DNA from: Halobacteriales archaeon
GTDB taxonomy: Archaea; Thermoplasmatota; E2; JACPAO01; JAHFTW01
Reading direction: 5' to 3'
NCBI GenBank assembly: GCA_020201445.1
Contig: JAIVGU010000230.1
Location: forward strand, 1-6,159
Length of the DNA: 6,159 bases
Within the stretch, counting starts at the first letter, position 1; each line of letters starts with the position of its first letter. The notes beneath the pieces are model-generated. The model was given only the letters and a program-made list of their open reading frames with translations, searched no databases and was not told the origin of the DNA. Below, in pieces: positions 3,123 to 5,493 of this stretch. Position numbers and translations under genes: made by a program.

Positions 3123-3776
3123 ATGGAGCCGGTGCAGCGCCTCCCCCGCCGCCGCCTGGAGAAGCCCGGCAACGGCTCCCGCAAGCCGTTCATCAACCTG
3201 TGCGGCGACTACCGCTTCCTGCGCGCCGGCTACTGGGCGCTCGTCGACGCGGAGCTGAACGGCGTCGAGTCCTCTCCCACCCCCATCCAGGCGGTGACGG
3301 CGCAGAACGCGGCCGCCTGCCTGCTGGTCGCCAAGCACAGCGGCATCGAGACCGTGGAGTGGCGGATTGCCCGCAAGCCGCAGGACGTGGAGCCGCCCTG
3401 CCTGCTGGTCCCCGTCGCCGGCCTCACCGACACCTGCTACGAGGTCAAGTCCACCCGCAGCCGCGCCGCCCAGTGGCGCTCGGCCACCCAGAACGGCACC
3501 CGCCCGACGCTGGCGGTCAAGCTCAACGGCGACCTGCGCTCGATGCGGATGATCGTCGGCGTCACCGCGCACGACAACTTTCACCTCGCCTGGGACGTCT
3601 GGCGCACCTTCGGCGTCCCGCTGGCGGAGATCTGGTACGTCGAGGGCGGCGACCCCGACGGGCCGGAGGGCAGCAAGCCGCTGTTCCTTGGCCTCGACCC
3701 GCTGCCGCTGCACGAGCTAACCGAGCGCGAGCTGCGCCTCTACGAGGACGTCTCGCAGCGCCCGATGGAGGCTTGA
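3123..3776 (+). CDS. Standalone RLAN domain protein (N-terminal partner of RimK-like ATP-grasp ligase)
   Basis: This 217-residue protein resembles the RLAN domain (RimK-like ATP-grasp N-terminal domain). Key stretches are PFINLCGDYRFLRAGYWALVDAELNG (22-47), where fused family members have 'vinLcrsyrY...gYYvsLLAEArG', and the C-terminal WDVWRTFGVPLAEIWYV (157-173) followed by LFLGLDPLPLHELTERELRLYED (187-209), matching the 'lF..f.aPLL' and 'plplheLt..E' end of the domain. In bacterial relatives this domain is fused to the ATP-grasp ligase; here it ends at a TGA and the ligase begins 8 bases later. No catalytic residues are known for it; a substrate-recognition or structural role for the ligase is inferred. 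It has no signal peptide. ATG 3123 was chosen, with an in-frame TTG at 3099 as an alternative. The basic N-terminal ~20 residues look disordered. Confidence 0.75.
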   Translation: MEPVQRLPRRRLEKPGNGSRKPFINLCGDYRFLRAGYWALVDAELNGVESSPTPIQAVTAQNAAACLLVAKHSGIETVEWRIARKPQDVEPPCLLVPVAGLTDTCYEVKSTRSRAAQWRSATQNGTRPTLAVKLNGDLRSMRMIVGVTAHDNFHLAWDVWRTFGVPLAEIWYVEGGDPDGPEGSKPLFLGLDPLPLHELTERELRLYEDVSQRPMEA

Positions 3777-3784
3777 GGCCGGGC

Positions 3785-4681
3785 ATGGCGCACGTGGCGA
3801 TCGTGTCCGACGCATCGAGCCGCGACCGGCAGGTGGAGCTCGACGCGATGAACACCTACGTCGCGCAGGCCCCCGACCACGGCCACTCCGCGGACATCAT
3901 CGATGTGGACGACTTCGCCCGCCTGCCGGAGTTCGACGCCGCCTTCCTGCGCCTCGACACCTCCGTGCTGGGCCTGCCCTTCGCCGTCTCGCGCTACGCC
4001 TGGAAGCTCGGCCTGCGCATCGTCGACGACCCCAAGTCGATGCTGACCTGCATGAACAAGGCGCACGTGCAGGGCCTCCTGGAGCGCGCCGGCATCCCCA
4101 CCCCCGACACCGTCCTGTTGACGAAGGAGGGCCGCGAGCACCTCGACGCCCCCGCGATGTTCCAGGAACTTGGCACCCCAATCGTGGTCAAGGCCCCCAG
4201 CGGCGCCTTCAGCAGCGCCGTCGAGAAGGCGCACGATGCCAAGCAGCTCCAGACCCTGGTGCGCCGCTTCGCCTTCCAGAGCGACGTCATTCTCCTCCAG
4301 CGCTACACCCCCAGCACCTACGACTGGCGGGTCGGCGCCCTGTGCGGCGACCCCATCTACGCGGCGCGCTACCACATCCCCAAGGGCGGCTGGCGCATCC
4401 ACGACACCCCCGAGGGCTCCAGCAAGAAGGAGTGGGCCAAGATCGAGCGCGTCCCCCTCGGCAAGGTCCCCTACGCCGTGATGGAAACCGCCCTCGCCGC
4501 CTGCAGCCAGGTGGGCAACAGCCTCTACGGCGTCGACCTCAAGCAGCGCGAGGACGGCAGCGTCGTCGTCATCGAGGTCAACGACAACCCCAACATCGAC
4601 CCCGGCGGCGAGCTTCCCAAGGATTCCCCGGTGTTCGGGCAGATCATCGACAAGATTGCCCGCGAGGGGCCGCGGGCCTGA
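3785..4681 (+). CDS. RimK-like ATP-grasp ligase (catalytic domain of the RLAN-linked family)
   Basis: A 298-residue cytoplasmic ATP-grasp enzyme related to RimK (COG0189). Such enzymes form amide bonds by activating a carboxylate as an acyl phosphate and attaching an amino acid or peptide amine. Landmarks: a Rossmann-like preATP-grasp region (1-80), DDPKSMLTCMNK (81-92), ATP-binding VVKAPSGAFSSAV (134-146, K136), SDVILLQRYTPSTYDWRVG (166-184), SLYGVDLKQ (246-254), and the metal/ATP motif VIEVNDNPNID (262-272). The combination DWRVG, YGVDLK and EVNDNPNID is typical of the RLAN-RimK branch rather than ribosomal RimK. The loop reads AFSSAV where relatives usually have SFSrGV, a small departure. 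The target is unknown. ATG 3785 is preceded by GAGG-type purine tracts overlapping the end of the RLAN gene. Coupling with RLAN is nearly certain, since together they reconstitute the usual single protein. Confidence 0.92.
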   Translation: MAHVAIVSDASSRDRQVELDAMNTYVAQAPDHGHSADIIDVDDFARLPEFDAAFLRLDTSVLGLPFAVSRYAWKLGLRIVDDPKSMLTCMNKAHVQGLLERAGIPTPDTVLLTKEGREHLDAPAMFQELGTPIVVKAPSGAFSSAVEKAHDAKQLQTLVRRFAFQSDVILLQRYTPSTYDWRVGALCGDPIYAARYHIPKGGWRIHDTPEGSSKKEWAKIERVPLGKVPYAVMETALAACSQVGNSLYGVDLKQREDGSVVVIEVNDNPNIDPGGELPKDSPVFGQIIDKIAREGPRA

Positions 4682-4717
4682 TTGCTTCCCGGATGGGCAC
4701 GAAGGCCAAGCCGCGCC

Positions 4718-4747
4718 GCTTGTATACTTGTATAACTGTATACAAGC
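4718..4747 (+). promoter_or_regulatory. Palindromic operator/promoter with three TGTATA boxes before the toxin-antitoxin genes
   Basis: A perfect 10-base inverted repeat (GCTTGTATAC at 4718-4727, GTATACAAGC at 4738-4747) flanks a 10-base spacer that carries another TTGTATA. TGTATA occurs three times in the same orientation at 4721, 4729 and 4737, exactly 8 bases apart. The block ends one base before the ATG at 4749. It is the most AT-rich spot in the right half. The first TATA lies about 26 bases before the ATG, suiting an archaeal box A for a leaderless transcript, so a protein bound here would cover the promoter. The next gene encodes a ribbon-helix-helix domain, whose dimers typically bind short direct or inverted repeats. 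Autorepression is inferred. Confidence 0.75.
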
Positions 4748-4748
4748 C

Positions 4749-5165
4749 ATGGGCCGGACGACAGTTTCACTTTCACCTGCCACCCGGGACAGGCTCCTTG
4801 GCCTGAAGCGGCAATGGCGGCTCAAGACGACGGAGGACGTCCTGGTGAGGCTGTTGCAGGGGCAGCCGTTCGGCGCCAAGGCGCTCTACGGACGGAACAA
4901 GAAGGCGGTCGACGCGGTGCTCCAGCGCCACGGCATGAAGCGGCTCGTCGCCTTTGGGTCGCGCGCCCGGGGCGACGCGCGGTTCGACAGCGACCTCGAC
5001 CTCGTGGGCGACCTTCCCATCAAGGCCGGCATGTTTGCCATCGCCCACGTGAAGGATGAGCTGGAGGAAGCGATGGGCGTCCCCGTGGATTTCATCCCCT
5101 TCAGCGGAGTGTCGCCATGGCTGAGCGCAGAGATCGACAGGGATGGAGTGGCACTCGTTGGCTGA
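4749..5165 (+). CDS. mntA: MntA-type antitoxin: ribbon-helix-helix domain fused to minimal nucleotidyltransferase
   Basis: A 138-residue protein with two parts. Residues 1-38 form a ribbon-helix-helix-like module: a strand RTTVSLS (3-9), helix ATRDRLLGLKRQW (11-23), then TTEDVLVRLLQ (27-37). Residues about 50-138 are a minimal nucleotidyltransferase (MNT) domain with GSRARGDARFDSDLDL (70-85), which fits GSX10DXD with metal ligands D82 and D84, and a third acidic residue D114 in VPVDFIP. In type VII toxin-antitoxin systems MntA neutralises HepT by adding AMP units to a tyrosine near the HEPN active site; that is known from the family, not shown here. MntA antitoxins are usually just the NTase domain, so the RHH module is an addition and probably autoregulates through the adjacent operator. 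ATG 4749 directly follows the operator and starts the RHH strand. The 3' end overlaps hepT by 23 bases. Confidence 0.88.
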   Translation: MGRTTVSLSPATRDRLLGLKRQWRLKTTEDVLVRLLQGQPFGAKALYGRNKKAVDAVLQRHGMKRLVAFGSRARGDARFDSDLDLVGDLPIKAGMFAIAHVKDELEEAMGVPVDFIPFSGVSPWLSAEIDRDGVALVG

Positions 5166-5493
5166 CCGCGACCGGAAATCCTTGCAGGACGTGGTCGACC
5201 ACGCCAACCTCGCCATGGACTACCTGAAGGGAATCGACGAGGCCAAGCTCCTGCGCAACCGCAAGCTCCAGCTCGCCGTCGAGCGCCTGGTCGAGATCGT
5301 GGGCGAGGCCGCCGGCCGTGTGTCCCCTGCCACCCAAGCCACGCTGGCGGTCGACTGGCGGGGACTGCGAAGCCTGCGCAACGTCGTGTCCCACCAATAC
5401 GACTTCGTCGACCACCGCCGCCTGCTGCACTTCATCACGCACCTGTTCCCGGCAACTGTGGCCGCCATCGAGGCCTTCCTGGAGGCATCTTAA
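5143..5493 (+). CDS. hepT: HepT-family HEPN toxin (DUF86)
   Basis: A 116-residue all-alpha HEPN protein. It carries the RX4HXY signature R79-N-V-V-S-H84-Q-Y86 in LRSLRNVVSHQYDFVD (75-90), plus the preceding helix AVERLVEIVGEAAGRVS (45-61) typical of DUF86. In the family the Arg/His pair forms the RNase site in a dimer and the tyrosine (here Y86) is the residue AMPylated by MntA, so all key residues are present and the toxin appears intact. Targets in characterised systems include tRNA or mRNA; the target here cannot be read. ATG 5143 overlaps mntA by 23 bases. A TTG at 5158 preceded at good spacing by GGAG (5146-5149) is an alternative that would shorten the protein by five residues and overlap by 8. 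Either way translation is coupled to the antitoxin. Confidence 0.9.
   Translation: MEWHSLADRDRKSLQDVVDHANLAMDYLKGIDEAKLLRNRKLQLAVERLVEIVGEAAGRVSPATQATLAVDWRGLRSLRNVVSHQYDFVDHRRLLHFITHLFPATVAAIEAFLEAS

Follow-up and report, generated by a model that had tools for sequence, protein, structure and literature searches.

A class I HEPN-MNT toxin–antitoxin pair from a Halobacteriales archaeon whose MntA antitoxin carries a predicted ribbon-helix-helix domain beside a candidate operator

The gene pair described here, mntA and hepT, lies on a 6,159-nucleotide contig deposited for a Halobacteriales archaeon (JAIVGU010000230.1; this whole stretch is called the window below) and encodes a minimal nucleotidyltransferase (MNT) antitoxin, which begins with a predicted ribbon-helix-helix (RHH) domain, and a HEPN RNase toxin. 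Among its closest described counterparts is the type VII system HepT/MntA of Shewanella oneidensis (SO_3166/SO_3165), in which the MNT gene is likewise located upstream of and overlaps the HEPN gene, and the same motifs, GSX10DXD and RX4HXY, are present. The Shewanella MntA differs in having no recognised DNA-binding domain and in having its GS motif at residue 27 instead of residue 70 as here. A further difference is that its promoter carries one palindrome near -10 and another, dissimilar one near -35 (PMC4621449). It has been reported in the same study that this MntA binds to the promoter of its own operon and acts there as a repressor, based on a gel shift and on a 1.6-fold higher promoter activity when both genes are missing (PMC4621449), and the function of the MNT protein as a DNA-binding repressor has been restated since (PMC6929052). 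HepT/MntA CL1 of Thermococcus cleftensis is, like the pair described here, an archaeal class I pair, for which adenylylation of the toxin has been shown (PMC7641770); in its MntA the GS motif is at residue 33, and the stretch before it would be too short to hold an RHH module as large as the one seen here. An RHH domain on one half of a HEPN-MNT pair has been described in the paREP1 RHH-HEPN fusions of Thermoproteales, where in contrast it is found on the HEPN side and none is in an operon with an MNT gene; the same survey of 2009 proposed that the DNA-binding component is perhaps encoded in trans (PMC2701414).

Seen against these systems the pair is of a common kind, and what is new is a dedicated RHH module on an MNT protein with matching candidate operators; no description of an RHH-MNT fusion was met in the open-licence PMC literature searched. 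The initial annotation of this DNA had proposed that the module joins AMPylation of the toxin and transcriptional autorepression in one protein. The catalytic motifs and the predicted fold agree with this; as a function, however, the combination is not new, since the Shewanella MntA provides a precedent. The self-control of such pairs is poorly known, and the Shewanella gel shift and 1.6-fold effect come from the one experimental report we met. With an MNT protein whose DNA-binding module can be recognised and whose candidate operators are compact, expression control becomes directly testable, including the question of whether toxin binding or AMPylation alters operator occupancy. The features of the locus are as follows.

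4749–5165, plus strand: mntA, RHH-MNT antitoxin of 138 residues (PF01909, E=1.6e-9; 118 homologs; AlphaFold2 (AF2) model with a mean predicted local distance difference test (pLDDT) score of 91.7)
4749–4868, plus strand: predicted N-terminal RHH module, MntA residues 1–40 (fold prediction, conservation)
4875–5162, plus strand: linker helices and minimal nucleotidyltransferase domain, MntA residues 43–138 (Pfam, AF2 model, motif search)
5143–5493, plus strand: hepT, HEPN RNase toxin, overlapping mntA (PF01934, E=1.9e-14; motif RX4HXY)
4682–4748, plus strand: intergenic stretch of 67 nt, presumed promoter, between the upstream open reading frame (ORF), which ends at 4681, and mntA
4718–4727 and 4738–4747, no strand assigned: candidate operator, a perfect 10+10-bp inverted repeat with a 10-nt spacer, one base before the start codon

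We consider it likely that this is a class I HEPN-MNT operon, most probably from a member of the Thermoplasmatota, in which MntA AMPylates HepT and, through the added RHH domain, represses its own operon. To judge from the intact motifs and from published relatives, the nucleotidyltransferase half of MntA would transfer AMP to Tyr86 of HepT and thereby disarm the RNase. The RHH half would dimerise and, at the inverted repeat of 4718–4747, insert its strand into the major groove. This candidate operator overlaps the presumed promoter immediately ahead of the start codon, and bound MntA would repress the operon. A fall in the level of MntA would then lift repression, and the antitoxin would be remade. 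More speculatively, binding of HepT to MntA may alter operator occupancy, similar to conditional cooperativity in type II pairs.

Judged by their sequences against the definition given in PMC7641770, mntA and hepT form a class I HEPN-MNT (type VII) toxin–antitoxin module. Both proteins score above the cut-off of their Pfam families (PF01909 and PF01934), and a motif search found GSX10DXD at residues 70–84 of MntA and RX4HXY at residues 79–86 of HepT, both intact as had initially been annotated. The NCBI equivalogs MntA_antitoxin (NF047752) and HepT_toxin (NF047751), which are a narrower yardstick than class I, were not reached (39.4 and 23.8 against a cut-off of 60 bits), and we therefore regard the pair as a diverged class I member outside those equivalogs. 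Among known structures, the top fold match of MntA is 7bxo, a toxin–antitoxin structure with AMP-PNP (TMq 0.57), and the solved Shewanella HepT/MntA complexes rank among the top matches. In a PADLOC search, MntA matched the candidate system PDC-S09, at best over residues 45–135, while HepT gave no match. The start of hepT may be the ATG at 5143, giving 116 residues, or the TTG at 5158, giving 111; a HepT protein of 111 residues (P0241) is present in the protein collection and fits the latter.

The N terminus of MntA is, as modelled, an added RHH domain outside the ordinary MntA protein. In the AF2 model the chain is extended up to residue 9 and followed by helices at residues 10–22 and 28–37, which is the strand-helix-helix order of an RHH fold, the strand being extended and unpaired in this monomer model. 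When residues 1–50 were folded alone, the structural matches were CopG, MazE, NikR, Arc and ParD, all of them RHH proteins. In a scan with sequence profiles, the window protein had no match to RHH family models at E≤1, and 7 of 95 family members had a weak RHH_1 match. The NCBI MntA model aligns to residues 62–136 only, leaving residues 1–40 outside, and the GS motif, at residue 70 here, is also found much earlier, at residues 29–32, in four plain bacterial MNT proteins. The RHH-like module that had been proposed from the sequence is thus borne out by the fold prediction, by the matches of the isolated segment and by its conservation, and a structure other than strand-helix-helix, or an N terminus common to all MntA proteins, either of which would have spoken against it, was not found. 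In its fold, and in the inverted repeat at the promoter, the module resembles type II RHH antitoxins of the CopG/ParD/MazE/VapB kind. Those antitoxins neutralise their toxins with a C-terminal binding tail that is disordered on its own, not with an enzyme domain. As modelled, MntA lacks such a tail, since a confidently modelled nucleotidyltransferase domain follows the RHH part and no segment has a pLDDT below 50. Every second residue of an RHH strand points towards the DNA, so that residues 3, 5 and 7 are the expected reading triad.

A profile built from 46 of the 118 homologs found the whole module in 101 of the 118. Of the other 17, ten start inside or after it, three (P0035, P0057 and P0063) deviate and four are short matches without it. 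The module had been called unusual in the initial annotation; it does lie outside canonical MntA, but it is the normal state within its own family, and RHH-MNT proteins are also found in bacteria. GSX10DXD is present in 118 of 118 MntA homologs and RX4HXY in 38 of 39 HepT homologs. In alignment A1 (the window protein and 94 of the 118 homologs, omitting truncated, long and N-terminally deviant ones, which the count of 101 includes), the module is kept down to 32% full-length identity; T4, T5, R13, L16, L19 and L35 are conserved in at least 90%, and positions 6 and 8 are hydrophobic throughout. The expected DNA-facing positions vary: of the 95 rows, 43 have glycine, 36 arginine and 9 histidine at position 3, and 45 have tryptophan and 44 alanine at position 7. 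All seven module carriers with an organism name are Thermoplasmatota. The longest contig was as long as that of an MntA homolog for six of the eight nearest HepT homologs and for none of the 31 others (39 compared, the window's own excluded), which suggests that in six cases MntA and HepT homologs lie on the same contigs. A scan of genome contigs returned four loci, one of them matching over the MntA N terminus, and among viral contigs one search gave two matches confined to the nucleotidyltransferase part, the other searches finding no relative.

Two of the deviating homologs look as expected of a swappable module. P0057 has an extra N-terminal module before the usual one, above the DUF7557 cut-off (E=9.8e-8) and overlapped by a weak RHH_1 match (0.013), and in P0063 the RHH part is replaced by an unrelated N terminus, which is about 85 residues long and has no Pfam match above cut-off.

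The site at 4718–4747, which had been singled out for a test of binding by MntA, proved to be a perfect inverted repeat, and it contains three TGTATA units in steps of 8 nt (4721, 4729 and 4737). When the 67-nt intergenic stretch was shuffled 2000 times, an equally good repeat arose three times. The DNA itself was read at the window only, and the upstream sequence of the archaeal homologs was approached through translated N-terminal extensions, with 19 homologs having at least four residues before the searched motif (one of these, P0120, lacks the module and was matched falsely). Where residue 3 is arginine, the pattern [HY][TK]CI is found in 7 of 10 in-frame extensions, and TATACTTGTATA at window positions 4723–4734 would encode the same pattern in one frame. 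The extensions of H3-type homologs carry [SN]YNFI in 3 of 3 cases and those of the G3/W7 type [SN]Y in 4 of 4, which suggests, at the level of these translations, another half-site, GTTATA. P0059, with alanine at position 3, fits neither pattern.

RHH-MNT genes were also found in Alphaproteobacteria and in one Bacillota genome. On plasmids of Lichenicola, Roseomonas and Roseibium the RHH-MNT gene adjoins a HepT gene in the same order as here, and both motifs are present in the four pairs read. A search with the Lichenicola protein gave 376 homologs at E≤1e-5, of which the best 120 were listed; alignment A4 consists of this protein and 42 of those 120. Of 43 proteins scanned with family models, 36 match ParD (best 5e-7) and 29 match RHH_10, and on three of the listed homologs ParD and nucleotidyltransferase domains are already precomputed in protein databases. 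Instead of TGTATAC, the word GTGCACA or its complement occurs within 100 nt upstream at 6 of 6 alphaproteobacterial plasmid loci read and at 0 of 7 control MNT loci. The controls were taken from 19 weaker matches and judged RHH-less only by visual inspection; three have other long N termini. Ten plasmid records covered at least 80% of the query; six were read and the other four, from Roseomonas mucosa, have the same identity as one of these. Four of the loci have the word around -27 to -42 and the other two, those of Pannonibacter, around -90, and 9 of 11 N-terminal extensions of at least 10 residues in this family fit a loose GTGCACA pattern. When archaeal N termini were compared by profile with alphaproteobacterial ones, they proved only weakly comparable, which speaks neither for nor against common descent, although profiles of the complete proteins can be aligned from residue 4 onwards.

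The two Pannonibacter plasmids (L016 and L025) encode an RHH-MNT protein in which the GS and DXD residues have been lost, with the RHH part and the upstream GTGCACA kept. The next gene encodes a metallophosphoesterase and no HepT is listed, although the gene table is incomplete; in the plus frame searched, no RX4HXY fitting a HepT was found outside the MNT gene, with one stray match in L025. Persistence of the RHH part and of GTGCACA in the absence of catalytic residues or a found toxin is as expected if the RHH domain acts on DNA in its own right, and by its sequence the Pannonibacter protein is perhaps a former antitoxin turned regulator. On the Roseibium plasmid (L015, 459–2009) the RHH-MNT/HepT pair is immediately preceded by a ParDE pair. 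In Pseudobutyrivibrio an RHH-like nucleotidyltransferase (NikA-like, E=0.013) precedes a PF05168 HEPN gene, and a 12-bp inverted repeat lies about 42–77 nt upstream; as this HEPN protein is of the PF05168 family and lacks RX4HXY, the pair is nearer to class II. The Bacillota form looks rare, for the Pseudobutyrivibrio protein was matched in 5 of 291 genomes of the class, and only in the source genome did the match start before query residue 36.

Taken further, it is conceivable, though we regard it as rather doubtful, that RHH-MNT antitoxins form a recurrent HEPN-MNT subclass in Thermoplasmatota, Alphaproteobacteria and Bacillota that was perhaps assembled more than once. In such a subclass one protein would read its own operator and AMPylate the toxin, so that toxin modification feeds back on transcription. 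Residues 3 and 7 of the archaeal proteins would change together with the operator (R3/A7 with TGTATAC-like, H3/A7 and G3/W7 with GTTATA-like sites), and in Pannonibacter the RHH-MNT protein would have outlived catalysis and toxin and become a plain regulator.

Several points weigh against repression of the operon by MntA at this site. The word GTGCACA and the extension patterns were picked after the sequences had been viewed, in the case of the extensions without a chance control. Of the six plasmid loci, the Pannonibacter two are nearly identical to each other and another two come from Roseomonas, leaving fewer than six independent cases, and inverted repeats with arms of at least 7 were present in only 2 of the 6 plasmid loci (Lichenicola and Roseibium) and in 1 of the 7 controls. 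The set of extensions is biased towards genes with an upstream in-frame start, and archaeal TATA boxes could contribute to the patterns. Lastly, when the whole window was shuffled 200 times, 46 of the shuffles contained at some position a repeat as good as that at 4718–4747, so that its position and sequence weigh more than the repeat itself. This last count also favours the idea that the palindrome is due to chance or belongs to an unrelated regulator, the RHH domain either controlling other promoters or being the remnant of a formerly separate RHH antitoxin, and the ParDE genes next to the Roseibium pair illustrate that RHH antitoxin genes can adjoin such pairs. We nevertheless think this quite improbable, given the location of the site one base before the start codon, its rarity in shuffles of the intergenic stretch and the presence of upstream elements in other lineages as well.

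The RHH fold might instead be kept for dimerisation or for contact with HepT, altering complex assembly with no role in transcription. RHH domains are known dimerisers. HEPN-MNT complexes also vary, with a hetero-octamer of two MntA and six HepT reported in Shewanella and a distinct binding mode in Legionella. This is unlikely in our view, because the inverted repeat abuts mntA, GTGCACA accompanies all the bacterial RHH-MNT loci read and none of the controls, Pannonibacter retains both the domain and the word, and the variation between homolog groups falls on positions 3 and 7 while the core is fixed. Least probable by far is a false extension from a wrong start codon, although plain MNT proteins of 97–98 residues begin about 30 residues before GS and ten entries of the collection begin inside or after the module. 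The two-helix model is confident, and this explanation was rejected on account of the conservation of the module in 101 of 118 homologs, down to the low identities given above.

Upstream of the operon two adjoining ORFs, 3123–3776 and 3784–4681, precede mntA; the former has a weak match, not reaching the cut-off, to the N-terminal domain of RimK-like ATP-grasp proteins, and the latter, without a Pfam or NCBIfam match, is ATP-grasp-like by eye only. At the start of the window a deoxyhypusine synthase-like ORF on the minus strand (3–572) is cut by the window end, and its best match, 1,9-bis(guanidino)-5-aza-nonane synthase, reaches 108.5 of 500 bits, a score that is probably low because of the cut. 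Between a tauE-like gene and a STAS-like ORF lies an imperfect foldback of about 142 nt (2621–2762), to which, as to the rest of the window, an Rfam scan gave no match. With main arms at 2650–2680 and 2703–2733 it has the appearance of a small inverted-repeat element, and the predicted DNA fold of 2615–2765 has an energy of -42.3 kcal/mol compared with -20.5 ± 2.9 kcal/mol for 200 shuffles (z -7.6).
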